DNA of 64,000 nucleotides from Nymphaea colorata. Its lineage: Eukaryota > Streptophyta > Magnoliopsida > Nymphaeales > Nymphaeaceae. Made by a program: the position numbers and the translations under genes. Positions 14,201 to 64,000 of the stretch are shown piece by piece. Where the stretch lies: NCBI RefSeq assembly GCF_008831285.2, contig NC_045148.1, positions 11,264,183 through 11,328,182 of the forward strand, read 5' to 3'. The notes under the pieces were generated by a model that saw nothing but the letters and a program-made list of their open reading frames with translations, made no database searches and was not told the origin of the DNA. The stretch's first letter is position 1; every line of letters begins with the position of its first letter.

Positions 14201-17200
14201 CAACCTGCTTGGAAGCCTTATCTTTATAGAGGAAAGCAACGGATTATGTTTAGCATTCTTGAAACAGTTTATGCAGCAATGTATGACAGAGACGAAATAC
14301 CAGATACCGTATTGATTTCAGGTCAGGTTAACTGCAGAGCAGAGTTGGAAGGATTGCCTGATGTGTCTTTTCCTCTGGCAGGATTAAGCACTGCTCATAT
14401 TGAAGTTCTGTCCTTCCATCCTTGTGCTCAGGTTCCGGAACATGGCGTAGATAAGCAAGCATTAATGTTCTCTCCTCCACTTGGGAATTTCCTTTTGATG
14501 CGCTACCAAGCATACTGCAGCCTTGGCCCTCCCGTAAAAGGGTTTTATCAGCTTTCAATGGTTTCCGAGGATGAAGGTGCCTTCTTGTTTAAACTAAGGT
14601 TAATGGAAGGCTACAAGGCTCCCCTAGCAATGGAGTTCTGTACCATAACAATGCCATTCCCACGAAGAAAAATTGTGTTTTTTGATGGAAATCCTTCTCT
14701 TGGTACTGTTGCAACAACAGAACATGCTGTTGAATGGAAAATTATTCCTAGTGGTCGAGGTGTTCCAGGTAAAAGTGTCGAGGCAACTTTTCCTGGAACC
14801 ATTAGGTTTTCCCCAAGAGCCACTATGAAATCTCATGGTTCATTGTCATTTGGGAAGGGTAGCATGGTTGATGATGAGAGTGATACAGAATCAGAAAATT
14901 TAAACAATGTAGTCAACATTGAGGATTTTTTGATGGAAAAGATGAATAAGGACCTTCCGCCAGTTGATATGGAGGAGCCATTCTGTTGGGATGCATATAA
15001 CTATGCCAAAGTAAGCCCTTTTGGCATTTTGTGCTTGTCCTTGGTTTCTTCCATGGTTATGTAGAACGTATACATTGTGAAGCCATCAAATTTGTTCAAC
15101 TTTTCTTAACATGTTGGACTTCGTGCAAAAAATGTTGACATCTAATTTGACATGGCCATTAGGTGATGATTGAAACTGTTGTCAAATATCTAGTTTTGCT
15201 GGTCCAAACTTTTTGTTTCGTTATAGGTTCTGCTGTCCTTCAGTTTTAGTAACGATTATCATCTATTTGCTGAGGGCTGCATGAGTAACAGATCCAAAGT
15301 CCAAACGGTGCATGCTTATGTCTTCGGCAGTGTCATGCATTGATTATCGATATCAACATCATCGCTCTCTTACCTTCTTCAAATATCATGAATGAGTGCT
15401 GGAGATAGAATGCTGTGCATGCCATAAACCTTTCTAGTTTGTTATCACTATTTCTTGCTGACATTGAATTAGGTTCTGGTTACTATCTTAATGTAAGTCA
15501 TGATTGTGTTCTATGTTGATTGAAGAGATTAGGACCAACAGCTGCAAAAGTTCAAGGTATAACGACCAGAAATTCTTATCTTATTTTACTAGTTCAAAGT
15601 GTAGGGTCACATTACTCTATGTAAAGCTTCAGGACTATAATTTGTCTTCTATCTTGAAAAATAAAAACGTTTCCATGACTTGCACATGTTCTCAAAATCT
15701 TTGAAAAGTATGTTGTCCTTGTGTGCGCCTGCTGTGGAAATAACCATTTGTAGCTACAGATGTCTCTTCTCTCTTTATTTTGTTCAAAATGTACCTTTTG
15801 GCTCTTCATAAGTTGTATATCATGCATTTTGCAGGTAGCATTTAAGATTGTTGGAGGGACATTATCAGGAATGTCAATAGATCCAAAATTGGTATGATTC
15901 ATGCAACATAGACATACACATGCACAGACTATCTTGCTTCTTATTCTAGTTTAAATAATTTGGCAACCATTCATGGGGGAAAAATTAATGTCATGAAAAA
16001 GTCACCTTACCACACTTATTTACAAAACGAACATCTGATTTGTTTGTGAACAATTAATGTCTTAGAATAAGGGTTTCTTCTTTAACCTGTTTCCTGTCTA
16101 AGCCTAAAAGATAGAAGGGGATTGTAGACTTGTTGCTCTAGGGGCATTTGATGGAGGGAAGAAAAATTTTTAGGTGTACCATTTTGGGGTTTATCTGCAG
16201 TGGCAAAATTCTTTTGTGAGAAATTTTTCCTCTTTTACAAAGTCTTATATATGGGTTTTTCCCTATTGTTTTATTCCCACAAATGGGTCAGAATATTTGA
16301 CATGGAAAACTTCTTCCTGCAATCATAGACACCCTAGGTGACATAAGAATGCCAGCATGGGGAATTGAAATAAAAACGACAGCGTTATTAAAAAAAGGTT
16401 TAGTTGAAATGATAGTGCTAGTCATGCATAATTGCGTAACTGTGTCCAAATTATCACAAGATGATCCTTGGCTAGGTCAAACAGCTGTCTATTTTGAATG
16501 GTGCACTTTTTGTGTGCTACTGACATTCTCAATTCTGATCCCATATTAATGGTCATTTAATATTTTGTGCAGGTCAGTATATATCCTGCTGTCAGGGCTC
16601 CAGTAGATTTTTCAGCTCAGGTAGCTTGATGTTTGTGTATTCCTGCTATTGTTTCTCCTAGAATTAAAATTATTAGATTATCAAATTTCCATTTAATGAC
16701 CACTTGATAAATTCTTTTAGGAAACCAATGTCAAGTAAGCCTTAAAAGAGGTGGATCATATGATATTTTCAACAAAATAATCTTGGACATACAAACATAA
16801 GAAAATGAAATTATATATGTATGCCCTCCTCCCTAATAAAGTTTCTGACTCCACCACAGCTCATCACATTAGCTGAAATATCCTTCTCAAAACAAGAATG
16901 TGGTTTGAGAATGAGATAATGACTACCAAGAAATGGTGGCGGATTCTTGTAGTTTATCCGAGTACTGGTGTCATCAGAACCAGGAAGTGCATACAGAAGC
17001 TGCTTCCATAATAATTAATATTTTTGGTTAATGCATCACGGCCACACTGTCTTACCATGGAAATTTAGGATGCTTGCTCACCCTAATGGCTTCCTTGAAG
17101 GTTTTCAATGGATCCTAGTTCTGGATTTCATGCTGGTGTTGTTCTTTGGTCCCTTGTGCTTATCTGATTTTGTCACTTTTGATGTTATACATTACATGAC

Positions 17201-19800: not shown

Positions 19801-22081
19801 AAAAGCGAGATCAATGTAGATTTCATCAATAGCATTATGGTTGTAAACAATTTAACATGCTGATGTGCAAGAAATAGAAACTAGAAGAGTCTTTTAGTCC
19901 AAAAAATAACTCTATGTAGTCTATTGTCTTACAATGACCACCTAAATTGAAAAAAAAAAACTTGAAAAATCAAAGAGGATCACATTCATCAAGACAGATT
20001 TCACCAACTTAATTGTAATTGAGAGAGCTGAACGACCAAAAAAACAGATTTCACCAGTACGATCATCAAAATGGAATTGTTCTAATGTTCATAGTTCACA
20101 TAAATCAACCCACGCCCATAGTATTAAGTCTCATGATGCTCACAAAATATCAGATATACTCGAAGCCTGGTGACATATAGAGGCCGAAGTTGTGTAGAAA
20201 GATCTCTTATCTAAAAAAGGCTGGTGAAAGGACAAGCAATGACCAAGTTTGAATCATGCCAAACAACTTAAACCAATAGAAATTTCTTGTTACGAATAGA
20301 GCTCACGACAAAAGAAGGCATATATAGTGCACCATTAAAGTACATTGCCATCTAAAGCATAATCATATCAGAGTAAACGTGGTCATGTTTCTACTAGTAT
20401 TATTACATGGAAATGGTGGTAACATTTTCCAGCAGATTACACATTTACTGGATAAGAGAATGCTTAGCATTCCCCAAATAGGTATCAAGTGTCCTTGAAT
20501 ATCATGATCTCAGCTTCTGGCAATCAAAATACATTTCAGACAATTATAACTTGGTCAAACACATGATTAAGAAATCATTTACTTAACTCTTTCTTAATAA
20601 TAGAATCTCAAGATAGTTGAAGAGAATGGGTCATCATATTTGACACCAGAAGTGACTTAATTTAAGCCATCCAATGGTTCAAACAGTATATTTGAAAGTA
20701 GAACAGAAATTACATATATTCTAAAAAATATAGGAAATAACACAATGATATCATACCAGAATTGGTGCTTCCAAATTTTTGCAAGTTATGCTTTAGAAAA
20801 ATGTCCCAGAACTACATTGATCTTGGCAAAGATGAGTCTCAAGCCACAAGATTAATTAAACAAATAAAATAGTTTTGAGAAGGGGACTCTACGCAATGTT
20901 TACCTTTGTTGTTGCCGTAAATATCTACAAATTGCTTCTTTACAACCAAAGGCACTGGGAAATAATGAGATGAATGGTAAGGGAGCAGCTAGCATATAAT
21001 TCCCAATTTGATTTGAAGGAGAATGCAGCAACATAGGAGGAAGGAAAGCCTCTCTGGTTGTTCAAAGCAAAGTGACCAGTGGGAAAAGAAAGGGCAACAA
21101 ACATATAATTTAAAACCAAATTGGAATCCAACTCAAATGAAAAAAAGACAAATCTGATAAAGCAGCAGATGGGTCCGAACTTAACGCCAAAGCATTCTCT
21201 TTCTATCATGTGGAGAGCTTGCGATGATGCTAAGTTGCTGACCAGTGGGAAAAGAAAGACAGATGTTCATTGCATTCAAGGGAAACAGGTGAAAATTTTT
21301 CCGTTCCTCATGACTAATCCTGGAATCCTACTCCCAAAACCTACTTGAGGACAATTTAAAAACCAAAAATCCTAAACAAATTAAATACAAATATCTACCC
21401 GGCTGGACAGAACCGGGCGCAAACCCAATAGATAAATGAATACAAGCAAGAGGTACTCGAAAAACCTAACTAGGCTCATCTTACTACAAAAAGGTTAATT
21501 TCTCATTGTGGTAATTTGTTCTTAAAATATCAACATCTACTTGTTCTTAAAATATCAACATCTACTGCGACGGCAACAGGAGCGTGGTTTGGTAATACGT
21601 CGAGTTGGCCACTACTAGCAAACGAAATGATTTCTTGTGAATCCGGTTGAGCTTGAGCAAAAATTGAAGTTTTTCAAAAAATTTACACACACACTCGCAT
21701 GCACACGAACACGCTCTCTCTCTCTCTCTCTCTCTGCCGATTCGATTTTTAACTATGATCATAGTCACCCCCTAATCAAATCAGCTGCCTAGCATGTCTC
21801 CAAAAGCCGCGAAAGATGCTCATGGAATAAAAGGGGTTCATGGGATCACCGTCTTTACGGATCGATTATTCATCCTTACCAAGTTAGGGTTGTTAGTTGG
21901 AAATAAGGAGTTGGTAAAGGAGAACCCGAACGTTGATACACAGTTTGATGACCTTGAAAAAAAAAAAAATTAAAGAGGGATCACTAGCTCTGCTTCTACT
22001 TTTCTCTCCTGCAGGAGGCAGTACTTCACAAATGGACAGTTAAATTAGTTATAGTCCTAGTTGGGTGCGTCCTGGGGAGCC
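19801..22081. other. Gap before the PPR gene
   Basis: No gene can be supported with confidence. A short possible minus-strand exon lies at about 20904-20952. A (CT)n run is at 21714-21735. A 59-codon ATG ORF at 21794-21973 sits just upstream of the PPR gene but resembles nothing I know. An A-run lies at about 21957-21969. The PPR promoter and leader must lie in the last few hundred bases. Confidence 0.4.
21714..21735. repeat. (CT)n microsatellite
   Basis: Eleven CT units, about 350 bp upstream of the PPR start codon. CT runs are common in plant promoters and leaders, but no role is shown here. Confidence 0.9.
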
Positions 22082-24445
22082 ATGGCGTCCAGTTGGTCGT
22101 CTGTCTCGCATCGTCCCTCCTTCCTGAGAAGCCTATCCCGCTATCTCTCTTCTTCCCCCACCATTTGCCTCTCTCCCCTTTCCCCTTCCATCCCAGTTGA
22201 AGAGCAGGAAGAAGAAGAAGAAGAAGACAAGATCACGGACAAATCGTATTGGTCCCGGAAGATTCATAGCCTCTGCCTTTCCGGCGGCGTGGATGAGGCC
22301 TTGTCTCTGATGGGTCGCCTTTACCTGAGCGGGTTTCGCCCTGATTCCTTAAACCTGAGCAGCATCATCCATTCCCTCTGCAACTCGTCTAGGTACGCGG
22401 AAGCCCACCACCGCCTCCTCTTCTTCATGCACAACTCCGGCTGCATCCCAGACGAGCGCACCTGCAATGTTCTACTCGCCCGTCTCCTGGATGCCAATTC
22501 TCCATCCCTCACGTACCCAGTTTTCAAATTTTTGATTTCTGTGAAACCACATTTTGTTCCGTCGATCACCAACTACAACCGCTTGATCGATCTCCTCTGC
22601 CGGCACGGCCGCACCGGGGAGGCCATGGACCTCTTCCTGGACATGAAAAAGAGGGGCCAGAGGCCTAATGCTGTTACTTATACCTCCATGATCCAGGGAA
22701 TTTTCAGATCAGGTGGGATTAAAGATGCGCACCAACTATTTGACGAAATGATCCAACAAAAAGTTATTCCGAATTCTTTAACGTTCAGTGTTCTTCTTCG
22801 AGGGCTTTATCGAAGCGAGCGCAGGGTTGATGCTGGGAGAGAACTGATGTCCAGGATGTGGGGTAGGATGAGCGAAGAAAGTGATCGTTCTGTAAACTCG
22901 GCGGCTTTCAGTAATCTGATTGATGGGTTATGCCGAGAGGGGTTTTTCCATGAGGTTTATCGGATTGCTGAAGAAATGCCTCAGGGAAAGAATGTTCCTG
23001 AGGAGTTTGCTTATGCCCAGATGATAGATTCACTTTGTAGGGCTGGGCAAAATCATGGGGCGTCTAGAATTCTGTACATAATGAGGAAGAGGGAGCTACT
23101 TCCTAGCATGGTCTCCTATAACTTCATAGTTCATGGCTTAAGCAAGCAGGGAGGTTGTATGAGAGCCTTCCAGTTGTTTCAGGAAGGGATTCCGCTAGGC
23201 TATGTGCCGTCAGAACCAACATATAAAGTCTTGGTTGAGGGGCTATGCAGAGAGTTTGATCTTGGTAAAGCTAAGAAGCTATTGGAATTCATGTTGCAGC
23301 AGCGAGGAATTGATAAGACTCGCACGTATAACATCTTCTTGAATGCCCTCTGCTTCTCGGAGGACTCGACTGAACTCTTGAACGTCATGGTAGCGATGCT
23401 GGAGAACGGATGTCAGCCAGATGTCATCACCCTAAATACTGTGATTAATGGCTTGTGCAAGGCAAGAAAGGTTGATGAAGCAGGGAAGGTTTTAAATGAC
23501 ATGTTGGAGGGGAACTTCTGCAGTCCTGACGTCATTACTTTTACTACCGTAATTTGCGGGCTTTCAGATCAAGGAAGGACAGATGAGGCCATGGACCTTT
23601 TAAGGAAGATGCCGGAGAAAGGCTGTAACCCAAGTCTTGTAACTTACAATTCAGTTTTACATGGCTTGCGCATATCTAAGAAGACAGGTGACCTGTTGAG
23701 ATTTTTTGCTGAAATGATGAGTAATGGTGTTTCTGCTGATAGTACGACCTTTACCATCATCATCGATGGACTGTGTGAAGCTGGCAGGCTCGATGAAGCT
23801 AAGAGATTCTGGGAAGAAACAGTTTGGCCTTCCAAAATTCATGATGATTTTGTTTACGTTGCAGTCTTGCGAGGAATGTGCAATGCAGGCAAGTTAGAGG
23901 ATGCATGTAATTTTCTTTATGAATTAGTAGACGTAGGCGTTTCTCCTAAAGTTATCAGTTATAACGTGCTTATTGACAATGCCTGCGAACTTGGTTTAAA
24001 GCGAGAAGCATACAGGATTGTGGCCGAAATGCGGAAGAATGGTTTAGTTCCTGATGCGGTGACCTGGAGAACACTACAGAAGCTGCATGACAACCACAAT
24101 AGAAACAATGTTTGCAATTTCAACTTCCCGAGTGTGGCAGGTAATTCTACAGCGGAAATAAATTCGGAGGATGATGGATCTCTGTCGTTGTTCAAGCACG
24201 ATAAAGGCAGCGAAGAAGTAAATTTTGAAGCCATATCAGAAAGAAGCGATGAAAGGAAAAATCTAAACGTTGAAAATGATGAAGTTCTATTTGAGTGTAA
24301 CAGTGACATGTTTCATGTGGAAGAAGAAGAAGACATTATGAAGGAAGAAAGCCTGGAAAGCAGGACTTCAAACACGGAGAAGAGATCAACTGAAAACAGG
24401 GAACCTTTATCGAAGATGGCACGAAGGGTTTTTGGACTGCTTTAG
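22082..24445 (+). CDS. P-class pentatricopeptide repeat protein
   Basis: Intronless gene for 787 residues. The start is ATG at 22082 (context GAGCCATGGCG). The frame is open a little further upstream but has no earlier ATG. The N-terminus is rich in Ser, Arg and Leu (MASSWSSVSHRPSFLRSLSR), fitting an organelle, probably mitochondrial, presequence, and is followed by a Glu run. From about residue 55 to 660 there are roughly 15-17 repeats of about 35 residues with the P-class pattern (for example VTYTSMIQGIFRSGGIKDA and VITLNTVINGLCKARKVDEA). PPR arrays bind single-stranded organellar RNA, one base per repeat. There is no E, DYW or SMR domain. The last 120 or so residues form a polar acidic tail. 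It resembles Arabidopsis At3g18020 from memory, with moderate certainty. The RNA target is unknown. Confidence 0.92.
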   Translation: MASSWSSVSHRPSFLRSLSRYLSSSPTICLSPLSPSIPVEEQEEEEEEDKITDKSYWSRKIHSLCLSGGVDEALSLMGRLYLSGFRPDSLNLSSIIHSLCNSSRYAEAHHRLLFFMHNSGCIPDERTCNVLLARLLDANSPSLTYPVFKFLISVKPHFVPSITNYNRLIDLLCRHGRTGEAMDLFLDMKKRGQRPNAVTYTSMIQGIFRSGGIKDAHQLFDEMIQQKVIPNSLTFSVLLRGLYRSERRVDAGRELMSRMWGRMSEESDRSVNSAAFSNLIDGLCREGFFHEVYRIAEEMPQGKNVPEEFAYAQMIDSLCRAGQNHGASRILYIMRKRELLPSMVSYNFIVHGLSKQGGCMRAFQLFQEGIPLGYVPSEPTYKVLVEGLCREFDLGKAKKLLEFMLQQRGIDKTRTYNIFLNALCFSEDSTELLNVMVAMLENGCQPDVITLNTVINGLCKARKVDEAGKVLNDMLEGNFCSPDVITFTTVICGLSDQGRTDEAMDLLRKMPEKGCNPSLVTYNSVLHGLRISKKTGDLLRFFAEMMSNGVSADSTTFTIIIDGLCEAGRLDEAKRFWEETVWPSKIHDDFVYVAVLRGMCNAGKLEDACNFLYELVDVGVSPKVISYNVLIDNACELGLKREAYRIVAEMRKNGLVPDAVTWRTLQKLHDNHNRNNVCNFNFPSVAGNSTAEINSEDDGSLSLFKHDKGSEEVNFEAISERSDERKNLNVENDEVLFECNSDMFHVEEEEDIMKEESLESRTSNTEKRSTENREPLSKMARRVFGLL

Positions 24446-26227: not shown

Positions 26228-28290
26228 CTGATAAGATTTCAAGTGTAACATGTCGAGAAAATGCAGAAACGCTAAAATTGCACGGATAGTAAGTAACCTT
26301 GACTGCAGAAAACTCTCAACCAAGAACATCCAAATTCTTACTTCCTCTAACAAATAAAACTTTGCCTCAATAAGTAGTCAGGCTAGGGGCACGAGAAAAA
26401 ATGTCTCCAGTTCAATCAGGGGCAGGGGTGGGCCCGCCTAGGCCGTGGCCCCATCCCAACTAATAGAAAAAAAAAATTGTATTACAAAAATTAAAAAAAA
26501 AATTGTTGGGTAATGTATTTTTTAGATTCGAGTTTAGTTTAGTCCTACCCGGATAAGTTTGATGGACTGTTTGGCCCGCCTCTGAAACAAATCCTTGCTC
26601 CACACTTGGTTCAATTCTTATAAGTGTTATGATTTTGCATCTTAAGTGGTAAGATACAATACCTAAGTTGAATAGTATGCTGCTGCTATCATTTATGTCA
26701 TTGTAGCCCACAACTTTGGAGGCATAAGCCATTCGGAATTGGTGAGGGGCCTTTGTAATCTAGGCACACACCAAGTTGTAATCTTCTCCCTGGAGCGGGT
26801 AACACTGCATGCAGCCGTTCTTTTAAGCAGTAGAACAAAATGGAAGCATTGGAAGTGGTCCAACTAGCTGAAACAGCAGCAGAAGAAACTCCAGAACTTG
26901 GAGGATATACTTAAAGTGAACTCAGAAAAGTTGTTAGAAGCCAGAGTTGGATAAGAAAAAAAAAGAACAAATCTTAAAAAAAGTCAGAGTACGTTCAATG
27001 ACATGACTCAAGACACTATATCTCCAGTAGTATTTAAATCATTTCTTAGTTGGTTCTAGTTTTCTCTCAGAAAACTATTCTCCCTGCCTACTTGAACGTC
27101 TTTTTTTAAGTAGTGGCTTGGTAATACTCCCACTCATCGAAATAATTTTAGGCTTTTAGCAATTTCATATACCCGTAAGTATTCATTTTAGTTGTTTAAC
27201 GTATTAAGTGATACATGTGGGTCAAAACCACCAAGTCAAATGTGCAGTTCCACGTAATAGATAAATACAGCAGCAACTAAGCTGAATTACTATTCATGTC
27301 AATTACGATAAAGAATCAAAATTAGGAAATGAAAGCGATTTCTTTGGTAACAAATCCAACAGAAGAGAGTCTCAGATAGGCCAGCGTGGTCAGAGTCGAA
27401 GGCGAGTTCAAGACTTACCGGGTGGAGTCGCGGAGATCTTTGCAGAATTAGAGACGAACCGAATCGACTACTGTCGTAGATCCTCTCTCCTTCGGAAAAT
27501 AGCCTGGATCTGGATAAAACCCGTATTGTCTTGGACTTTGCTTCCTGTCATAGATATGGGGATTGAAGCCTGAGGATAGATGAACGCCGCAAGACGGAGT
27601 TGCTGCTTTCTCCTTTGCCATAAACCCCATGAGCCACTTCCGATTCTTTCATACCGCCAGTCTCAGGTAGTCTCTCTCTCGATGTTGTTTTTGCGTTTTT
27701 TTTTTTTACCTTGTTGCATTGCTTAAACCTTAAGCCCTTGTTGGCGCCGGTCATTTTTTTTTCTCGCCATGCCCTTTTAGCTTGCTGAATTCAAATTTTA
27801 TAGAAAATCCAACTCAAATGCTTAATTTTTTAGGGTAGGAATTTTCACTATCAGGGACCTGTTTACTGGAGATTTTCTGTTAACGATAGCTCAACCACCA
27901 GTATTGGCGTTCATAAATTTGTTTATCGGATTTCCAGCATTGGCCTGCAAATGGACGTAAATGAAGTTATAAAAACTTAATTCAGGGTCCATTGGTCGAT
28001 GGTGCTGTTATTGTGAAGTTGGAGTTAGATGGTGTTGTCTTGTCGCGCTGAATCATTTCTTCCATTTTAGGTGTTTTTTCATTTTATGATTCGTAAACCA
28101 TCTGTCGGTTTCATGTGATGGAGTTATCAGGCGATGATTTCTGCATATCTTTATTTTGGCGGCTTTAGTTTGGAGAAGGCAAAAAAGACTTGAACGAAAT
28201 GGAAGCAAATTAGGTCGTCGCGTCCAATTCACGTGATGCACTCCGAATTGCAAGTAGATTAGTGGTTTGATCGTTTTCCGGTCTCAACAT
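26228..28290. other. Region upstream of mTERF4
   Basis: About 26380-26770 contains GGGCCCGCCTAGGCC and CCATCCCAACT words often seen in plant repeats. A minus-strand exon-like segment, about 27420-27690, ends in a strong GTAAGT donor and may be the first exon or leader of a divergent gene. The mTERF4 promoter should lie between that and 28290. Confidence 0.35.
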
Positions 28291-29862
28291 ATGTCAAACA
28301 TCATGATGATCAACTGTGCTGGCGTAACAAAATCTGGGTTTTGGTGTTCGCGCTCTGAGGCTTCCATCCTTGGTTTCAACTTTGCACATCTCAATCCGCT
28401 TAACAAAATCCTTTTCACAATTGAGAGGAGAAATGTCCTTCAAGTCGGAGTTGGGTCTGCTATTTCCCAAAGAATGTACTCGGCGGCCTCCTCAGGCTTG
28501 GCTTCAGCAAGTGACCGTTCTGATCGAAAGCCTGCCGGTAAGTCGTCTCTTTATGCCAGGCCCAGTTTGCTCCAAATGCAGCAGGATCGGCTCAAGGCAC
28601 GTGAAACTGTTTATGAGTTTCTGAGGAGTCTTGGAATAGTTCCTGATGAGTTGAACGGTCTTGAGCTTCCTGTTAGTATCGAAGTCATGAGGGAAAGGAT
28701 AGATTTCCTGCACAAACTAGGTCTTACAGTCTCGGACATCAACAACTATCCTCTTGTTCTGGGTTGCAGTGTGAAGAAAAACATGATTCCTGTACTTGAT
28801 TATCTTGGAAAACTGGGTGTTAGGAAATCCACCTTTGCAGATTTCTTGAGGCGATATCCACAAGTTCTTCATTCGAGTGTAGTAGTGGATCTTCAGCCTG
28901 TTGTGAAGTACCTCCAGGGTCTGGATATCAAGGAGAATGATATTCCAAGAGTTCTTGAGAGGTATCCAGAGGTTCTAGGATTCAAACTGGAGGGTACCAT
29001 GAGTACTTCTGTTGCATATTTGGTTGGCATTGGGGTAGGAAGAAGAGAAATTGGACCAATTCTTACCCGGTATCCAGAGATATTGGGAATGAGAGTGGGA
29101 AGGGTGATCAAGCCATTTGTGGAGATGCTTGAGAGCATAGGGGTTCCAAGGCAAGCTGTTGCAAGATTGATTGAGAACCGACCTCACATGCTTGGTTTTA
29201 GCTTGGGAGATCAGGTGAGACCAAATATAGATGCTTTGATTGAATTTGGGGTGAGAAAGCAAAGTCTGCCCTCCATCATAGTTCGCTATCCTGAGATTGC
29301 AGGACTTGATCTAAGGTCAAAGCTTCTGTCTCAGCAGAATTTCTTTAAGTACAATCTTGATGTGAATCCTGAAGAGTTTGGTGGAATTGTGGAAAAGATG
29401 CCACAGGTTGTTAGCCTTAACCAGACTCCAATAATGAAGCACATTGATTTCTTGAAAGGCTGCGGCTTCTCACAGGAAGATATGAAAACTATGGTCCTTG
29501 GTTGTCCTCAGATTCTTGCATTGAACATTGACATCATGAAACTAAATTTTGACTATTTTCAACATGAGATGGAGAGGAAACTGGAGGATATTGTCGCATT
29601 TCCAGCTTTCTTTACTTATAGCTTAGAGGCAACTATCAAGCCTAGGCATAAGAGGATTGCTAAGAAGGGTCTGAAATGCTCGTTGGGCTGGCTTCTGAAC
29701 TGCAGTGATCAGAAGTTTGATGAACGGATGAGCTACGACTTCATTGACATCGAGGAAATGGAAGCTGAGCCTTCATTTGATATGGAATCATTTTCACGGC
29801 CAAAGGAATATGAATCATCTTCGGAATATGATGACGACAGTGAGGATGATGATGACATGTGA
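28291..29862 (+). CDS. MTERF4: Transcription termination factor mTERF4, chloroplastic
   Basis: Intronless gene for 523 residues. It corresponds closely to Arabidopsis MTERF4 (BSM/RUG2, At4g02990, 541 residues), which localises to plastids and mitochondria. The maize orthologue promotes group II intron splicing in chloroplasts. The start is ATG at 28291 (MSNIMMINCAG). Upstream in-frame sequence has no ATG. The first 85 or so residues are a Ser/Arg-rich targeting region. Then come tandem mTERF motifs (about 30 residues each, for example FLRRYPQVLHSSVV, VLERYPEVLGFKLEGT and ILTRYPEILGMRV) that form the nucleic-acid-binding superhelix. The conserved block with PAFFTYSLE and RHKRIAKKG follows. The tail is acidic (EYDDDSEDDDDM), as in the Arabidopsis protein. 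Confidence 0.94.
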   Translation: MSNIMMINCAGVTKSGFWCSRSEASILGFNFAHLNPLNKILFTIERRNVLQVGVGSAISQRMYSAASSGLASASDRSDRKPAGKSSLYARPSLLQMQQDRLKARETVYEFLRSLGIVPDELNGLELPVSIEVMRERIDFLHKLGLTVSDINNYPLVLGCSVKKNMIPVLDYLGKLGVRKSTFADFLRRYPQVLHSSVVVDLQPVVKYLQGLDIKENDIPRVLERYPEVLGFKLEGTMSTSVAYLVGIGVGRREIGPILTRYPEILGMRVGRVIKPFVEMLESIGVPRQAVARLIENRPHMLGFSLGDQVRPNIDALIEFGVRKQSLPSIIVRYPEIAGLDLRSKLLSQQNFFKYNLDVNPEEFGGIVEKMPQVVSLNQTPIMKHIDFLKGCGFSQEDMKTMVLGCPQILALNIDIMKLNFDYFQHEMERKLEDIVAFPAFFTYSLEATIKPRHKRIAKKGLKCSLGWLLNCSDQKFDERMSYDFIDIEEMEAEPSFDMESFSRPKEYESSSEYDDDSEDDDDM

Positions 29863-36155: not shown

Positions 36156-38113
36156 CTAGGAGCAGTCTATGCTTCTGTCTCCAATCAAGTTCAAGCTATC
36201 CTGTTGGTCTTCTTCTAAACAGTCAGCTTCATCAGACTCTCTCAAGTGCTGAAAGAAGTCATTGAGATGCCATGGGCAATCATCTATCCAGTCACTCTTC
36301 TTGGCAGTTGCCCGCATTTTCTGGTCAGTTATCATCTCTTGAGACAGTCCCCATCCCTTCATCTCTTCGTCACTGTGATGAATTGCTAGGCTGTACTCGC
36401 CGCCTGCGCCCAACTGCATGACCCGCACCTGGCAGTTGGTTAGATTGTGTAGGCGTTCAAACTGCTCGACGGTCCACCTGAACCACTTCATGAGGAAGAC
36501 CCGGGAGGTGACGCCATGGGAAACAATAACGATGTTAAAATTTGAGATACCACATCGATTGATCCGATTCATGTCAATATCCCTCCAGAGTGACTCCAAG
36601 AAACCTGCAGTTTTACACCCATGTCACAATCTCCCAAGTCTGTGCCATAAATAAGAAAACTTCACGGAATTGCGTTCGATTTTTGAAGGCTAACAGATAG
36701 ACACTCGAGTTTTGACCTGAATTATACAGCAAAAAGCCATTAGACGAACGAAATTTTAACTCAAGCCTGTTTTTGCTATACGACCTAAAGTCGGGTGTTT
36801 TTTGATAGATTACAAGATATTGGCTACACTGAGTTTATTCCAAACCTATGAATGAAATGTTAATTGGTTTCAGTAAAACCTGATTGACCTGATTACACTC
36901 ATTAAACTGATACAATCCCGGTGTATATGAAGGAAAGAAGCCCGATTTAGTGGGGGAAGTTTGAAGGTTTCAATTTAGTTGAGTTGGGGTATGTGCCGTA
37001 TCAGGTTTTCTAGTATCTGTCCAGACTCTAGAGTCTAAATAAGATATAGTCGAGTTCAAGTACCTGCCTCGAATCATATTTTGGTAAAGACAATCTTCAC
37101 AATTTTGAAGGGCATTTAGAGCATGCCTCATACTAGTAAACATATAAAATTCGCGGGGTAACCACAGGTACATCCACAAATTCCATAATGCCGGTGGATG
37201 ACATCCTTCCATTCATAAATTTCTGAGATCTTGGATTCAGGGTCAGTTGTATATCCACCAAGTAGATTGATCAGATCCATTCACATCTCTACAGTGGGGG
37301 TGACTTCAGAAATTTCATGGCACATCCTAGTCCAAGAATTGACTCAGTCCGCAACTCTTGAATGCAAGAGAGATGGAAGATGGACCTCTATCTCCAATTG
37401 ACCGGAAACTTTCATGGGCTTCCGCTCATGTGCTCTCATTAATATAATTTCGCTTCTATACCAGACAACCTAAGTTTTGCTGCCAATCTGGTCAAGCAAA
37501 CGAAGTGAAAACCAGCTCCAACCGCAAATACCTTTGGATCTGGGAGGAGGGAGGAGCTAAACAGACCCATCTCGACGCCATTTTCAAGTCGGATATCCAA
37601 TCCAAACCCAAGCTACCGAACCCCTATTCTGTGCCACAGGGAAGAGAAGGGGAGAGAACGAAAGAGAGACGTACTGGTGACTCGGTCGTAGACGTCGGCA
37701 GCCGACTCGCCCTCCGGGAACCGGAAGAAGAACCGTCCGAATCGTTGCCGTTTCTTCTTGTCGGCCTGCATCTTCTTCTCCTCCTGGAAATTGCCGAAGT
37801 CCTGCTCCCTGATCCGGCACTCCTCCCTCACACCGGCGATCTCTCTCCGGCTGAAGCTCCGGCCTATCTCCGACAACGTCGCCCTGGTGCGCGCGTACGG
37901 AGACACGTAAAAGTACACTCTCCAGTCCTCCTCCGACCAGGCGACTATCCGGCGAATCTCGGCCCCCGCCTCCCGCGCCTGACGGACTCCGGCCGCTGTT
38001 AGCGGGATACGGTGGTCGGCGGTGGTCGTGTAGGCGGCGTTGTCGAGGTTTCCCTGGCTCTCGCCGTGGCGGACCAGTATGATCCGTTTCGGAAGTATCC
38101 GGTTCGATCCCAT
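36156..38113 (-). CDS. Phosphoglycerate mutase-like protein AT74-type
   Basis: Histidine-phosphatase superfamily protein of 295 residues. Exon 1 is 38113-37675 and exon 2 is 36604-36156, with a GT-AG phase 1 intron of 1,070 bp. The start MGSNRILPKRIILVRHGESQ is the first in-frame ATG. Visible catalytic elements are the RHG motif with phosphate-accepting His16 (LVRHGESQGN), the arginine in SPYARTRAT, and the second histidine His176 in VSHGVTSRVF. From memory it matches the plant AT74/AT74H group, whose substrate is not firmly established. A true glycolytic mutase role is unlikely. The C-terminus is acidic and polar. The 5' part is notably GC-rich compared with its surroundings. Confidence 0.9.
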
Positions 38114-39701
38114 CGCTCCTCCGCCTAGGGTTGTTACTTGCTTCTTCTCTGCGGATTCTCGCCTTCCTCGTTTCTCTTCCCAATCATTCTTCACCCATTT
38201 TATTTCTGCCTCTCTCTTTCTGTGTTCAACATCGATTGACGCTTTCTAACATGCAAAAGTCAAGCCCACGGCATCTTCTGTTGCCACCTTTCAGGGAGCC
38301 GGACGTCCTTCCGAAATTGTGTCCGTTTACTTCACTAAATCCCATTAAACAGAAAACCAGTGAAATTAGTTGCTAAGTCACTGGCTTTCTGTTAGAATGG
38401 GATTTGGTGAGAAAAACATGGAAAAATTAGTATTCAACATTTTTTTTTGGTTGTAAAGAAGTCAAAAGAATGAAAATTGGAAATAAAAGCACACTACATT
38501 TTTAATAGATTTTTTGACAAAAATTCCTTTAGAATTCGAAGACATAGCATCTTACTTTTTCTATTAAAAGTTCTGTCTTGAACCTTTTTTTTGGTTGGCT
38601 TGCCAGTGTGTTATCAATGGTATATGAACCAATAAGTGTTTGGTTCTCCACTCTTTCATTAACATCTTTGTTTATTCAAGTTGATGAAAGGTAAAGAGTT
38701 TCAATATTGGAAGTGGATCTTTTGTTGGCTAGGTTGGTGGCAACCTGCCAATCTGAAAGAGAGATTTGTTATAATCCAATATTCAATTGAAATATGAATT
38801 CAAGTAGTTGGATTCATTTAGAAAGTTCCAGTCATGTATGGTCTATTATGTTACTGTGAATAGACAACCACCAACATGCAATTATTCAATATTTCTATAT
38901 ACAGAGTTCCAATCCAACTTCGAATCTAATTACGCAATGCTTTTGCAAATTCGTTGGATGGATTTAACATTTTTATAATCAGTTTCATCAATCCGTATAC
39001 CCCGTGAGTGCGGCATTTGATAGCTCTTGATCTACTTGATACAACATCTTTGGGTTTTTTTTGTTACTCTTTTATGAATCTGCCCAGTAACAACAGTTAT
39101 TACTGTTATCAAACATGCTTTTAAGATTTGAGATCTGCGAATTTAAGATGAGTCCTCATCTCTTTGCTTTTGGATTAAACCTACTGGTTACTGGCCGGGG
39201 TCGGTGCACCAAACCCCTCTTTAAGGTGTTGCTAAGTTGAATGAGAAGGCGCAAAAGGATAAAAATAAGTAGCAACCCTGTTTGATTTAGGAAGTGCATT
39301 TATTGACATGTAACTCCACCAATTCGAGCAGTTGCATTAGTTTTCAAATACCTGGCTTTGAAACCCAAGTACCTAAGATTTCGGATCCGAATCCAATACA
39401 CCTATAACCACTAGAGGAGCTGCAGGACCCTTCTTATTTAGTTGTTTATGTGTTGATGTTCCCATATAATTTAGTTTATTACATATCGGTACCTCTCAAA
39501 TCTAAAAGCTTTTGAAGGATCTAGAATTGGGTCGCGGTATATATTAGTGCCCTTCAATCAAAAGCTGCATATAACTATATCTGATCTAAAAGGCATTCAT
39601 ACCCTCTCTCTTTCTCTCTCTTGTGTTCTTAAGTGACTTACTTGTCACTCAATTTTGTTAATAAATTTTCATTTTGTCGGCCCTCTCTCTCTCACAAACA
39701 C

Positions 39702-42643: not shown

Positions 42644-48610
<5,967 letters not shown>

Positions 48611-54679: not shown

Positions 54680-56847
54680 CTTGGGACCTCCTCGCTTCCC
54701 TCCCTTCTTCACCTCATTCTTGCCGCTCAGTACCGTTCTCGAAGCGATAAGGCCGTTGATACTTGATAGCCAAAAACGGATCGGATCCCGTTGAAACTCC
54801 GGAACCGACTCGGATATGTGGCTTATTTTGTGCGTGGGCCCACAACCACGTAAGCCATCAAATCAGAAATACATATAGGTTTTTTAATTTTTCATGAAAA
54901 ATCTTAAATATTTGTGAAAAGTAATAAAGTGAAATAATAGTTTACAGAAACATTTCTCTTAATCAAAATTATCTTTAAAAAGAGAAAACTATTGAGAAAA
55001 TCATGCATGTTTTTTATTTGTTAAAAAATGAAGAAGCTTTTTAATGTTATTTCAATTTCATGTTTTTTTCTCATGAATACTAAACTTTATTTGTCATTGA
55101 ATTTTCACCTTTTAAGATGGGTCCCTCCTTCGACGGATTATAACTTTTACCGTAGTTATGTGATACACAAAATAAAACAATATCATTTTGATATTTGAAT
55201 CGCTCAACTTTTCAGGGCATCAATGCCATTTCATTAGATGATCAATGTACTTTGCATGAATAAACAAGTAATTGAATTTGTACCAAGAACTTTTTCCTTA
55301 TAAATAGAATATTTAGCGTTTTTTTTTTCTTAAGTTTCAGGAGCACGTTATTTATTAGGGCATTCCACTGCCACCCAAGTTACCCTTGGTTAACTTTGTC
55401 TTATTTAAAATATATAAATATATATGGTAATGAGACAACTCAATATACATATTTTTTTGGTCCTATGATTTGATGACACTGAATTGAAGTATAAAAAATT
55501 ACTCTTAATGTTCCAAATGGTCTTTTCAGGATTAATATATATGACTCTAGTCATCAACTCTAATATTTAATTTTGAAACTAAAAAGAGGAGGGACACTTT
55601 GCCATTTATGGGTTTTTTTTTTAAATAATCTTTTAACTGATGTGCTGCTTACAATAATTGAATAAATTGTCACCTCATAGGCATCCCATCAAAATTGGAA
55701 TTGAACAATGCGTCTTCTATTGGGAATGCACTTTTTGGATAATTAGAGTGTTTGATCTAAACATTTGTCGGTTCCATTAACAAAACACCGTCAGCTAAAA
55801 TGGTAAGAATGCGATCTACCAAAATGAGTTCGATTTTCATGAAAAAAAAAATGCAGCTAGAAGTTTTTCGACTCATATATTAAGCTAGGTTCATTTCAGT
55901 AATTTGTTTGTTATTTTCACGAAAAAAATATGACTTAAAAAAAAAAACATCTTAAATTATAGGCAAAAGCAGTACCCAAAGCCAAATTTTATTTGCTAAA
56001 TCATTGGATGAATGTATTCAAATTGGTTATAGTATTGGATTCCCATCAATGTTTGCAAATGAGTTATTCAATTGTTGGCCATCACGTGGATTCCTATCAA
56101 TATTCGTAAATTTGCAAATGGTTATTCATGTGTTATTACTATCAAGCATTGTTGCAATCATTTCATCCTCTATAAGATTTATTGGTCGTTTTAATATTTG
56201 AAAATTATGTTAAAACTTTAAGAAAAGTATTTTTATAAAAAAGTGGAGAGCTCTTACTTTAATACAAAATATTAAATAATGAACTTGGTTTTTCCCTTTA
56301 CAACTATCTTCCTCACTTTCAAAACAGAATTTGTTTCCCATTAAGAACCAGTAAGCGGATAAGTCTTGTTTATCTGATTTATTTTTTACAGGCTTCCATC
56401 GTATTAAACGTAAATAAAAAGAGTGACGTGCAAGTTTTCTTTGAATCGAACATATTTTACACCGCTAGATTGTCAGACAAGCTTTATTGCCAGCTGGGGC
56501 CCGCATGAGTTTCTAGTTTGCCCTGTTCTCCGCCACCGCGCTTCGCCCTTCTCCACCACCACCCTCCGCTTCTTCTCCATCGTCGTCAACTGCCACTGTC
56601 GTCCTCCCCCCGTTCATCGTGCGCCATTCCGATCTTTTCCGTAGAGACCTCATTTTTTCTAGACGATTATCCCGGCATGCGCACGGGAAAATAAAAGGTG
56701 GAAAGGTTTCGTGGATCAAATAATCAGCCGAAATGGTTGTCATGGAAAATTTCCTGTAAAAGTTTTTATGGGGAATCAAATGGCGGTTTGAATTTCAAAT
56801 TCTACAGGGCGTCGAACGCCTCCTATTCTCTAGTTATCGTTTCGTCA
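54680..56847. other. Divergent intergenic region between RPH1 and the PIEZO unit
   Basis: About 2.2 kb. The left end should be the RPH1 promoter. 54840-56420 is very AT-rich with no coding signal. 56500-56640 is CG-rich (CCACCACC, CGTCGTC words) and may be a promoter or leader for the rightward transcript. No gene supported. Confidence 0.5.
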
Positions 56848-58483
56848 ATGGGGAAAGAAGCTCGTCAGCAACAGAGCTCCGAGAAGGCCAAGGTACGGTT
56901 TCCCTTTATTCACAAGTTGTGAATTGTTTCCTTCGGGTGTCATTGCTGTAAAATATTTGTTCGTGGTATTTTCCCCGTTCTTGGTAATATGAAGATTGTC
57001 GTCATCTTGGTGCTGTTGTTTTCTTCCTATTCCCCAAGCCTTTTTGGAGTTTTAAGCGAAGGAGATCATAGAAGAAATGTTCAAGTACTTTTTTTTTTTG
57101 GAAATTTGGATGAGAAGGGTGCCATTTAGGTGGTTGGAAATTCAGGATTTGATGCCTTTTTCATCGTTTTTTTTTTGTTTTTTTAACTTGGGTGTTTGTT
57201 CTTAATGACATTTCTGGAGCATATATGAGATTGTTATTCTGATAAAATTTCGGTTCATTGACGCCTGTTATGTAGCTTCGTTTTTCCCCAGTAATGAAAA
57301 AAATGATCATTTCCTCTTCTTCTTCTCATGACGAGGTTTCACTAATTCTGGAGTTTTTTTATTTGCTTTTATTTATCTTCAATTTTTTGTTTTTCGATTC
57401 GTTCTCTTGTGAGTTCGTTCCACGCATCAAGATTGTGGTCCTATAGGCCATTGAAGAAAAAGAAAACATGAGACATATTGACAAAGTTCGTAAAAACGCT
57501 TCCGACATTAGGATAGGATGCCATCTCCATACCTTACCGGGGAATAAAGTTTAATTAAGATAGTCAATCAAACTTAATTGAAGAAGAATGTCAACGGTGA
57601 CCGTTGTTTATCCCCTTCCTACCAGTACCATTCTTCCCATGTTTAAGATTGTGAAGATCTTATGTTAGGCATATGCCAATTCTATCTATTGAAAAAAAGG
57701 ATGTATGCTTATTCTGATACATAGGTATAGAATGAAAAAGGGTATTCCCTTTGTGATACCTAGTATTTTCTCAATCGAACTGAACTGCCGTGCTGATTGC
57801 TTTTTTCGATTTGGGAACTGCAGATTCAGTTATGGAGCCTTTTGGTGACGTTAACTTTTAGGTGCCATCCGGCATGTTGATGTTAGAATTAATCTAGGAG
57901 CCTAGGTTATTCTTAGGTGCAATTTTTTGACTCCATAACTATTGATATATCAATAGACATAACAAAATACTAGTTGGCAGGTATGGTTTTAGATGAGACC
58001 AGGCCTTTCATTTTATGTCCTTTCAGGACTGCAGGAAAGATAGTCCAAAGATGTAAGAGGAATTTTATTTGGTTTCATATGCAACACTTTGTATTAATCT
58101 TTTGTTTGAAAATTTTGGAGTCTTTTATATATGACTGAGACATGCAAAAGCATCATAAATTCTTTTAGGGCATTTACAGGACTTGATGTGGAGATTTAAC
58201 AGATGGAGCTGACTACATGTGTCCTTCTTTATGAAGACTTACTACCAATATTTTGACATGGTTTTTGTTAAATTCCACTAAAACAAGTATCAGTGACAAA
58301 TTAATTAAGCATTTTGAACGTGTTTGAGTCTAGAATAAGTCTGTACCTTGTTTTTGCTTTTAGGCATCCATAACTCATGGTTTTGATTCAGTCTCTGGTC
58401 TACCCACGAAGATTCTGGTGGGTTTCATGATGCTGATTGTATTGTTGTGGAAGATAAAGAGAAGGATCATCCTGGAATGGTGA
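56848..58483 (+). CDS. Candidate spliced 54-residue membrane micropeptide upstream of PIEZO
   Basis: Two exons, 56848-56892 and 58364-58483, join in phase 0 (donor AAG|GTACGG, acceptor TTTTTGCTTTTAG|G). The result is a 54-residue peptide: a polar N-terminus (MGKEARQQQSSEKAK), the segment ASITHGFDSVSGLPTK, one membrane-spanning stretch (ILVGFMMLIVLLW) and a basic end (KIKRRIILEW). The stop lies only 42 nt before the PIEZO ATG at 58526. It may therefore be an upstream ORF on the PIEZO mRNA, or a small gene whose 3' end overlaps the PIEZO promoter. The ATG has a weak -3 base (T) while the PIEZO ATG has A at -3 and G at +4, which would suit leaky scanning. I do not recognise the peptide. Splicing and coding status are inferred only. 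Confidence 0.42.
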
Positions 58484-58525
58484 CACTCGATTGTTGAGCG
58501 GTGGGCCTTTGGAAGATAGAAAAGC

Positions 58526-61500
58526 ATGGCGGATTTCTCACTTGGTTTTCTCTTGCCTTTGTTGCTCCTTATAGGTACTTGTCTCGCTAACCATTCGGTA
58601 TGAGCCATTAGTTTTTTTTTGCGTCATGGATATGTTAGCCGATGATTTTAAGGAATTAAATTTAGCAGCTTTACACATGATTTTCAGGTCATGTGGAAAC
58701 TGTCATTGGACATGAACCCATTGATTTTCGTGCTAACCATGTTTCATAATTGGTACTTTTGCAGAATTTTGTTTTATGCATTAATCTCTTCTTGTAACTT
58801 AGCCAGTTTATGAAGTATACATGGAAGAATACATTGATTGCATGCTTGGAATTTTACGTTGTTTATCTTGATGATGGTTAGCGATATTGAAACTGTGGAT
58901 GCTTGCTTCTGAGGAAGTAAATTCTGATTATAAGCAAGTAATCTCCAATGCTTGTTAACATCTTGTTGTTTATATGTTGTGTTTGAAATATGTATTTGGT
59001 TTGAAAAAGCCGCTAATTTAGATCAAAATTCTTCAATGTGTTAACCGTTGCACTCTAGTGAAGCAATGGTGTGACTGGTTTTAGGTTATCATGAAGATTA
59101 GTTTTTAAAGTGTAATTCATAATACTCAGATTGGTCTAGGGCCATTTCTCATTTGTTTGTTTAATTTTATGTGTTGTGGTTATAGCAGTGGGAGTGACAC
59201 AATATTAGGGGAGCTTTATTCAGTATGTCTTCCCACTTTCAGGATCTGATGTGTGCATGTGGGGATAACTGTGTTTCGGTGTGCGTGAAGATAACTGTAT
59301 AATAATTATGTCAGCATGTTCTGTGGAAGGGATGCATTCACAATGTCTACCTTTTCAGGGATCCAATCTGTGCATGTAGGGATAACTCAATTATAATTGT
59401 GCAACATGTTCATATTTTCCTTCAATGTAGGCTGGAAAATGAAGTAATTTGTCCATAACATCTTTTGGCTGTGTCAGAACTGATTTCTGCCATTTATGTC
59501 TGAATCAGTGAATCTGTGGATATCTCCTGCTAATTTGGAGTATTGTGACATTGTTTTCTGTGTGCAGGTTCATTGCTTAACTGGAGCTTGATTTCTTTCA
59601 TCAATTTGTTGGCTTTTCTCATCATACAGTATGTTGGTCCAAGAAGAGGTTCGCAATGCACACTATTATATTTTCCTTATAAATTGCCCAAAATCGATCT
59701 GATTGCACATGCTTGAATTTTGAATGAAGGGTATAGGTTAAGCCCTTCCTGATGAATGCCTTCCCAGGCTTTCCTTTTCTTTGATTCTTAGGTTGTTGAA
59801 TGTCATTATTTCTTTCATGACAACATTGTTTTTTTTTTCTTTGTTTAACAGGAATTCATTCCCGGCTGAGGTCTCTTGTGCTGCTAGTTTTGTTCATTTT
59901 CTCAGCAGTTACTGTTCTATCGGAAACTATGTTTTATGGAATTTGGCTGATTATGGGGAAAGAGTGGAGTTTAGCATATAGTTGGTGGGCAAAGCTTATT
60001 GGATTTGTTAGGTAACAGTCATGCCTTTGCTTTTTCTTGTTTCACTTATTCATTATCCTTTGGCTTTTAGACAACTAACTAACTAAGTCACTTGTGTTGG
60101 TTGAAGCCTGATTGTTTTCCTGTCTCATGACTCCGTTGTGACAAGAAAATCTTTAATTTTTTCAATGCCACCATTCCTCCTTTGTTCATTAAGAAAAGTT
60201 CACAGTTCATGCTTCTATGAAGTTTACGTAAATAGCTTCTTTTATTATCAAGCTAGCTTGCAAGAAAATTCTTGAGTTGTTATTCATAATTTTAAGAAAT
60301 ACTAACAATATGCACTTCAAAGTAGAATGTTTTTCTATTTATTGAGGGTTCATCAGAGGTTATGCTACTTTTGTCATCAATGTAACATGACAGATATGCT
60401 TCTGATTTCTTTGATGAGTCTGGGGTTTTATTTGGTTGTTTTAATGTGTATTATACAATGTATGTGTACTGCAGATTTATATATGTACTTATGTATGTCT
60501 GCATTCATATGCATAAGGTAACTGGAATATGCATATTTACATACATACTAAGGTCTGAGGAGCTTCTCTTCTTTTTGTTGGAAGTAGCCACATGGATGTG
60601 AGTTTAGAGATTGATTTTTAAGCATCAAAATTGGAGTTATCCGTTAATTGGTATTTATAACTTATTAGGCTTAAAAATCAATTACCTTGATATATATTTT
60701 TCTTGAATACTGAAGCCCCAAATAATTGAATCTTCACTGGAAACACAAATTGATTGCTAGCTTCAGGATCAAATTTGTGAAAGGAGGCAAGAGACATGCA
60801 GTTATTCCAGTACATTTTTGTACCAACACACACCCACATAGGGAAACACGTTGAGTCCCTTTGGTTAGGTCCCATTTTTGAGATTGTCAAAAAGTTTAAC
60901 TGCTGATTTTTTTAGTGCAGCCTGAACCTATAGATGTGTTTCTTATTGTTATTTGCCATGGGATATACTTTGGAGTCCAGGTTCATTTAGCTTAAAAGAA
61001 AAGGTTGGTCTTTTTAACATCAGCTTTTAGTGCACTATCAACTGTTGATTTTTCACTCTTAAAGAATGTGGGTCTCTAAGATAACCAATCTATACATGTC
61101 TGCTGCTAAATATAACATATGAAACACATAACTTACTACTAAAGCACCTTTGGGAGAACAAATTTGGTGGGGCCTACATTTGCACCTAACTAAAGATTCA
61201 TGGACCAGCACATTCATGTGTAAATTTGTATACGTACATGAATGCATTTTCTTTAGTTTAGGTACCATGTAGGCTTCTAGATAAAGGGATGTTCTTATCA
61301 CTTTCTAAGAACTGTTTTGGCTTGCACTCTTAACCAATGTTATCCACATCATACGTTATGCATGTGTATCATACGATATGTATCGTATAGGTTTAGAAAA
61401 CCTATACGGCACGCTTACGATACACGATACGCTCGTGTATCGTAAGCATATCGCCCGTATCATACAATACGGGGAAAAATACAAAATTCGTTATGTTTTA

Positions 61501-64000
61501 AAGTTTAAACACTTCTCCCTTTCTCTATTCTTGTGTTTAAAGGCTCCAAGAGACGTGGGAGGGAGAGATTTTGCCTATTTTCATAAAAGTAACTGAGGAT
61601 TCATCGATTTGGTAGATATTATTGTTGAATCATGAAAGATGATAACCACATGTTTTGAACTTATGAAATTGTGATGTAATCTAAGTCCTAACACTCCAAG
61701 TCCTAAGACTGTAAGTCCTAAGATTCTATAAACTTTTCAAGTTTAAAATTGTGATGGGTGCTTATTATGTTATTTTGAATCTCTGATTTTTATTTTTGAA
61801 TGTGTTGTTGATAGTTGATACACATGAATGTTCCTTATGATCTTTTTTATATTTGAATACATTTTTCTTGATTTCTGATTTGTTGTTTATTTTTTCAGTT
61901 TTTTATGATTTTTCTCTATTTTTTATGATTTTTTAATATTTTTAAATTAAAAAATTAATTTTACGATACACTACGCTATGTTTGCGATACGTTACGAGAC
62001 GGCGTATAGGTCGGCCCTGACCGATACGCGTTGTTGGTTGACCGGGTATGCATGATTCATAATCCAGATGAAATGTTTTTTAGATATGTGATGTACACCT
62101 TTTACAACATTGCTCTTAACGATGAAAGAATATGATGCCTCCATTTAAGAATTCTTTTGTCCTGGTTGTTTAATGTACATTTATTTGTTAGCTCAGTCTA
62201 GTTGCCGTATAGACTTGTTACACAGAGATCATTTATAATTTCAAAGTTTTAAACTGTTTCCATGTTCATTTTTCACTTGTAATGATCAAATAATGCAATT
62301 TCTCCTCTGAATTTTTAGTTTTATTTTTAAAAGTACATTTTATTGTTTCATTCCCCACAAAGAATGAACGTCTAATCATTAGCTTAGTTAGCATAGACGC
62401 TGCAAACTAGGCTAAGAACTCATCATGAGGTTTTGTTAATTGGCCATTTGAACATTGAGGAGTCTTTGATATGAATTCTTTCTTTCGTTTCTTATATTTT
62501 GCATGTTATCCTGCATGGTCCTGTTGTTGTTATCTAAATCATATTTTGTCATTAGTGGCTTTTTGCAGTTTCTCTTCAGTCGATCTTAAATGTTTTTTTA
62601 TTAATCCTTTTTTTTTTTCAGGCTTGAACCCACAAAATCTCCTGGAACTATTGTTTACTTCTTGGTTATACAGCTTGTGGTCGCTGCAATTTCTTTTTTT
62701 GAAGTTCGCAGAATTAGGTTTGGTTATGAAATTCTGGAAGGGTCATGTTGTTGGGGAAGTAATTTATTTATGCAATCTATTGGTATGTGCTCTAGTCTGT
62801 CCCTTTTCTCTCTAATTCTTATGAAATCTGTGCCTGGTGTGAACTAAAAAAATATATTAAAAGTTAAATCGGTGGAATAAGAGAAATCTTTTGCAGACCC
62901 TTTATCAGGATTTGGCATTTGATAAAAAATTACTAGCAAAATTTATTTCTCTGGTTTGGAAAACAAGTTCCAAGGCCCAAATACCTATGTTTATAACATT
63001 TAACTTTATCTTGGGAGCCCAACTGGTCTATCCATTGGTTACATTTTATTTACATATGAATTGAGGGCAAAAGTTCCACCTTATTAGAAAAGTTCCTGTG
63101 TAAATGACAAAAAACTTCACGAAGGAAAACTGTGTTATGAGTGTTAGTTTTTTTTTCCATTCAAATAGTAGCTGTAGATGCATTTTCCATGTTGCAAGTC
63201 TTCTATAGGGATTTGTTACAAACATCTAAAGTTGAGAGAAACTTACATAATTGATGCTGTCCATATTTATAAGTAGCTTGGAAGGCAGACCCTTTTTACC
63301 CTGATTTAAAATGATTCAGGTAACGTGTAGCTGGCGAAGAACTTCTATTGGCTGCTTAAAAATAAATTAGAAAATATATTATAATGTCTCCATGGAGTGG
63401 AGTCCTTGCTTCAGTCATACCTTAATCAACTTTCTATCAATGGATCAAAATTATTCCACCAATAATAAGCAGCTGAGACATCTGCACAAATGGAGTAAAT
63501 TCACATAGAGAAAACAAATATCTGATTTCCAGTGCAAGTTTATTGGTACGAATGATTCTGGTAGATAATAATTTTGAAAGAGTTTAGAGAGTCTTCTTTT
63601 GCCAATGAAAAATTAGCATTTCTAGTTGGATTATGGTAAATAATTTGCTTTACTTTAAAGTTTTATTTCTCCTCATTTTTGTTATCTATAAATGCTCAAA
63701 TTTTGTTCTTTTTTTTTTCTTCTCAAGGTCAAGTTATACTGCAAATTTGATGCTATTGAATTTTATCATTTCCACATGAAGTGGAATCAGAATGCAAGAA
63801 TGCTCTTAGCTTCCCTATGTGGGACATTTGTGCCATTGCCGCATGTTTGTGTTGAATCTCTAATTTTTTTGTACATTCCATCTGGTTTTATTCCTACTAT
63901 ATGTCAATGCAGGTTCTCGCCTTAGGATCACTTGCTGCCTATTATTGCCTCCTGTCCAGTTAGTTGTTGGCATTACTCGTCCCTCTTGGGTTTCTCTTCC
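58526..64000 (+). CDS. PIEZO: PIEZO mechanosensitive channel, N-terminal part (gene continues past the window)
   Basis: Large multi-pass mechanosensitive cation channel, known in plants from Arabidopsis At2g48060 (about 2,480 residues). Exons seen: 58526-58574, 59568-59648, 59852-60011, 62622-62782 and 63913 to the right edge, about 179 residues. All phases agree. The start MADFSLGFLLPLLLLIGSLL runs into NWSLISFINLLAFLIIQYV, matching the family N-terminus. Exon 3 has a hydrophobic helix around VLLVLFIFSAVTVL. Exon 4 has SPGTIVYFLVIQLVVAAISF. Exon 5 reads GSRLRITCCLLLPPVQLVVG and PSWVSLP, which closely match the Arabidopsis protein. The pore module lies outside the window. Intron 3 contains a MITE copy. 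Intergenic-looking ORFs between these exons are intronic. Confidence 0.9.
61335..62112. mobile_element. hAT-like MITE, copy 2 (PIEZO intron 3)
   Basis: A 778-bp non-coding element starting CAATGTTAT and ending ACAACATTG. A perfect 8-bp target duplication CTCTTAAC flanks it (61327-61334 and 62113-62120). It shares with copy 1 the left fold-back (GTATCGTATAGGT, then AACCTATACG), the middle TGCTTATTATGTTATT and the right AATTAAAAAATTAATTTTACG, GTATAGGTCGGCCC and TTTTACAACATTG. It encodes no protein. The perfect duplication suggests a later insertion than copy 1. Confidence 0.82.

Follow-up and report, generated by a model that had tools for sequence, protein, structure and literature searches.

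A candidate 54-codon upstream open reading frame in the predicted spliced 5' leader of PIEZO in Nymphaea colorata

Upstream open reading frames (uORFs) are an already known kind of plant element, as are CPuORFs, the subset of plant uORFs with conserved peptides (PMC2075485; ESUCA, PMC7106846). It is standard in plants for uORFs to attenuate main ORFs via leaky scanning, limited re-initiation or stalling, and for alternative start sites or splicing to take uORFs out of the transcript (PMC11062462). As reported in the passages of PMC11062462 that cite Lorenzo-Orts et al. 2019, the CDC26 uORF (CPuORF homology group 30) belongs to a bicistronic plant transcript and shows that the peptide of a uORF may itself be a protein. 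In green algae, bicistronic loci that depend on leaky scanning have short leaders with few ATGs before ORF 2, and small membrane proteins, OST4 and TOM22 among them, occur as partners at ORF 1 or ORF 2 (PMC11892635). Our search of the searchable literature returned neither a PIEZO uORF or micropeptide nor any account of a uORF that controls PIEZO translation in plants, and the main text of ESUCA (PMC7106846) makes no mention of Piezo.

Here we describe a short ORF ahead of PIEZO in a stretch of 64,000 nucleotides from Nymphaea colorata (C11:11264183-11328182, hereafter the window), which we compared with the whole genome assembly (408 Mb, 783 contigs). Two segments, 56848-56892 and 58364-58483, join in phase into an ORF of 54 residues whose translation is MGKEARQQQSSEKAKASITHGFDSVSGLPTKILVGFMMLIVLLWKIKRRIILEW*, in agreement with an earlier note on this DNA that had proposed such an ORF with a hydrophobic stretch and a basic tail. 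The distance of 42 nt that the same note had given between the ORF and PIEZO was borne out as well, since the TGA ends at 58483 and the PIEZO ATG stands at 58526. An in-frame stop lies 5' of the uORF ATG at 56692. Not mentioned in the earlier note is that the uORF and PIEZO share a reading frame, in which two stops (TGA and TAG) separate them within 46 nt; we saw no intron of realistic size in the sequence that would remove both. The coordinates of these features and of the neighboring genes are collected in Table 1.

Table 1. Features of the PIEZO leader and neighboring genes, in window coordinates; a slash marks the exon-intron boundary
Feature	Position	Strand	Details	Basis or condition
uORF exon 1	56848..56892	+	ATG GGG ... 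AAG, 15 codons, phase 0 at donor	translation
predicted intron in PIEZO 5' leader	56893..58363	+	1471 bp, GTACGG...TTTTAG	top-ranked donor, joint-top acceptor, low GC
uORF exon 2	58364..58483	+	39 codons, TGA stop; hydrophobic core I32-W44, basic tail KIKRR	
spacer from uORF stop to PIEZO ATG	58484..58525	+	42 nt, no ATG, contains in-frame TAG	
predicted first PIEZO coding exon segment	58526..58574	+	MADFSLGFLLPLLLLI plus first base of next codon; donor TAG/GTACTT at 58575	
three short uORFs	56677..56791	+	ATGs 56677, 56733/56742, 56768/56780	in mRNA only if transcription starts 5' of them
alternative acceptor AG	58025..58026	+	score equal to 58363	uORF of 24 codons if used
adaptor-complex medium subunit gene	14090-15064			
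PPR protein gene	22061-24445			
mTERF protein gene	28258-29862			
histidine phosphatase gene	37613-38245	minus		
glycosyl hydrolase family 9 gene	43458-48610			

The downstream gene is assigned to PIEZO because exons that match Pfam Piezo_cap lie ~14-16 kb past the window end on the same strand (window-equivalent positions 77799-79559). Support for the predicted start at 58526 comes from the first coding exon, which joins in phase to the acceptor at 59567. Elsewhere in the genome, the sole plant-like trace of PIEZO, on the minus strand at C11:11245708-11245977, ~18 kb before the window, is a partial copy of the PIEZO exon at window position 59568 together with intron flank (73% identity over 282 columns), with no copy of the leader. 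Farther into the gene, a PIEZO intron (window 61341-62060) holds many short motifs resembling CGATA, TATCG and CGTATC in both orientations, perhaps a small mobile element.

The case for a spliced leader comes from a ranking of splice sites that was blind to the reading frame and used generic plant weights from the textbook consensus, with no training on this genome. The uORF's donor, AAG/GTACGG at 56893, ranked first among the 52 GT sites in 56500-57200, and its acceptor at 58363, which reads TTGTTTTTGCTTTTAG/GCA (also written TTTTGCTTTTAG/GCA), was joint top with 58026 among the 52 AG sites in 57700-58526; the scores of both fall within the range of PIEZO's own splice sites. The earlier note had not mentioned this tie. 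Since a ranking that ignored the frame put this donor and acceptor first, PIEZO likely has an intron in its 5' leader, which is the simplest reading of the sequence. The GC content is high over 56460-56900, low across the intron and higher again over 58320-58620, so that both uORF segments look exon-like. Because the best donor and acceptor are those of the uORF itself and the GC content is exon-like, a single transcript across both ORFs is the simplest reading, which supports in part the suggestion of the earlier note that the PIEZO mRNA may be bicistronic-like; the five earlier uATGs and the four ATGs between the two starts, which that note does not mention, speak against a clean bicistronic design. 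The other splice forms that we tried, with other donors or acceptors, gave uORFs of only 18-25 codons, among them a 24-codon uORF from donors 56966 or 56984. The tied acceptor at 58026 may constitute an alternative-splicing switch that shortens the uORF to 24 codons.

The same exon structure bears on the proposal, also made earlier, of a separate small gene overlapping the PIEZO promoter. Its two exons could stand alone, and a poly(A) site of its own in the first PIEZO coding intron is possible in principle through intronic polyadenylation. Nevertheless, its stop lies on the same exon as the PIEZO ATG, 42 nt ahead of it, so that such a gene would need to have its end within PIEZO. Around 56.6-60.4 kb, AATAAA occurs no more often than in shuffled sequences, and the genome holds no homologue elsewhere. 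Nothing specific speaks for this gene, and we regard it as very improbable.

We favor instead, at about even odds, the view that these 54 codons form a uORF of the ordinary, attenuating kind on the PIEZO mRNA, which makes this the most likely single reading of the sequence. The leader would start near 56.5 kb, a start placed from GC content only, and removal of one leader intron of 1471 bp would assemble the uORF. Scanning ribosomes would then meet three short uORFs with five ATGs (56677-56791), which the earlier note had omitted, followed by the 54-codon uORF; the presence of the short ones agrees with a generally uORF-rich leader. As the earlier note had it, the uORF ATG stands in a weak context (TCAATGG, with T at -3) and the PIEZO ATG in a strong one (AGCATGG, with A at -3), G being at +4 in both, and part of the scanning ribosomes may initiate at the weak ATG. 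Re-initiation after a 54-codon uORF across 42 nt is expected to be inefficient. Few ribosomes would consequently re-initiate at PIEZO, whose output would come mainly from ribosomes that leak past the uORF to the strong ATG. With re-initiation scarce and PIEZO dependent on leaky scanning, the net effect of the uORF would be to attenuate PIEZO translation and perhaps to tune it, and the choice of a different acceptor or transcription start would alter the uORF. On this view the peptide would be either a by-product or a membrane-binding helix that does not last long. The sequence itself shows the ORF, its phase and spacing, and splice sites of the highest rank, and from these we infer that the leader is transcribed and spliced, that the uORF is translated and that it affects PIEZO. 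Use of the acceptor at 58026 or of the donors at 56966/56984 would count against an attenuating uORF of 54 codons, and a promoter within the predicted intron would eliminate uORF exon 1.

Such changes of start, donor or acceptor are what a third reading supposes, namely that the 54-codon frame is absent from the true PIEZO leader and is a construct of chance. The length of the uORF says little by itself, since 42% of shuffled leaders contain somewhere a closed uORF that reaches or exceeds 54 codons. In 5.2% of dinucleotide shuffles of exon 2, the exact phase-0 frame stays open over 39 codons or more and closes ahead of PIEZO, a figure that speaks for chance, and the tied acceptor at 58026 would break the 54-codon frame. 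Codon usage is equally compatible with chance: a model trained on local genes gave a likelihood ratio of ~1, which is neutral. A coding-like codon signal obtained with GC-rich kinase and transporter genes as training sets was rejected, because these sets are unrepresentative and the signal vanished with local genes. Against a chance construct stand the top ranks of the donor and acceptor, reached without use of the frame, and a hydrophobicity far above that of the shuffles; on balance we hold this reading to be unlikely.

An ORF this hydrophobic is improbable in shuffled sequence. Among the shuffles with such an open frame, a 13-residue Kyte-Doolittle mean of at least 2.92 was reached in 0.1% and a 19-residue mean of at least 2.07 in 1.2%, so that an open frame and a hydrophobic stretch occur jointly in about 0.005-0.07% of shuffles, with the reservation that both hydropathy measures were selected after the peptide had been seen. 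The plant DNA examined has 92 acceptor-like sites that are strong, and four frames at these sites passed the open-and-hydrophobic filter: a leucine simple repeat, a real PIEZO exon, the decayed PIEZO exon copy and uORF exon 2. The rarity of a hydrophobic open frame, by a measure chosen post hoc, hints at real coding, and the improbability of so hydrophobic a stretch likewise hints at something more than a neutral uORF.

The peptide has a pI of ~10.3 and an overall mean hydropathy near zero. Its core (I32-W44) consists of 13 uncharged, mostly hydrophobic residues with lysines on both sides, followed by KIKRR. AlphaFold2, run on the single sequence, predicts a helix over residues 27-53 with block-mean pLDDT of ~80-89, preceded by a low-confidence helix. 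We found no family or structure match for the 54 residues in Pfam, NCBIfam or the PDB, and no second copy or paralogue in this genome. A match to an antibody light chain (E 0.93) was weak and judged to be noise. An SMCO4-like identity (PF15012) was discarded, as the weak PF15012 matches in this genome do not include the locus and hmmscan returned no family.

These properties could suit a functional membrane micropeptide, a bicistronic product of the PIEZO mRNA with a single helix and a basic tail, selected as a peptide; it would work in trans, on PIEZO or at another place in the same membrane, or else in cis, as a nascent peptide with a regulatory role. In its favor are the joint rarity of the open frame and hydrophobic core in shuffles, the fact that the other frames passing the filter at the 92 acceptor-like sites were a PIEZO exon, its decayed copy and a simple repeat, and the confident AlphaFold2 helix; the plant CDC26 uORF and the small membrane proteins found as ORF 1 in green algae provide precedents. 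On the other hand, the codon usage is neutral, the peptide has neither paralogue nor family, a hydrophobic core of only 13 residues is short if it is to cross a membrane, the uORF sits among many other ATGs, and the hydropathy statistic is post hoc. Between the uORF start and the PIEZO start lie four ATGs where 5.4 are expected from shuffles (P(<=4)=0.27), so that ATGs are not significantly depleted between the two starts; the presence of these four ATGs speaks against a locus tuned to yield two products. We therefore consider the micropeptide doubtful, and its most specific form, a conserved single-helix membrane micropeptide that shares one spliced mRNA with PIEZO, is expressed together with it and acts on PIEZO or its membrane, to be a long shot. 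If true, this specific form would give a plant PIEZO its first described peptide partner.

With the peptide and the PIEZO N-terminus as queries, scans of contigs from viruses and prokaryotes yielded no relatives, as expected. Several small contigs (C136, C152, C269, C415, C483, C508, C577 and other small ones) carry Kinase or Piezo_cap matches with in-frame TAA or TAG and almost never TGA, as if TAA and TAG encoded glutamine, and they are therefore probably ciliate contamination of the plant assembly. No uORF relative was found beside the contamination-like Piezo_cap matches on C508 and C483. A sigma-70 promoter scan was set aside as not applicable to a plant.

The uORF at PIEZO is a testable prediction from one genome. 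If used, an attenuating uORF would offer a simple handle on PIEZO dosage, and conservation of its peptide would make that peptide a candidate partner of PIEZO. Compared with the leaky-scanning bicistronic loci of green algae, the locus shares a weak context at ORF 1 and a strong context at ORF 2; unlike these loci, which have few ATGs before ORF 2, the predicted PIEZO leader is long, shows no significant ATG depletion and holds four ATGs between the two starts as well as five earlier uATGs. Like the CDC26 uORF, as presented in PMC11062462, it is a short ORF that shares one plant mRNA, here a predicted one, with an unrelated longer ORF behind it; CDC26 differs, by the same account, in being conserved and tested for function, whereas the PIEZO uORF is a candidate from sequence and has no family match. 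CPuORFs are defined by the conservation of their peptides, and the uORF described here is known from one genome. What the locus has in common with plant uORFs, CPuORFs included, is its layout: both the start and the stop fall within the predicted spliced 5' leader, and a main ORF with a stronger start lies downstream.
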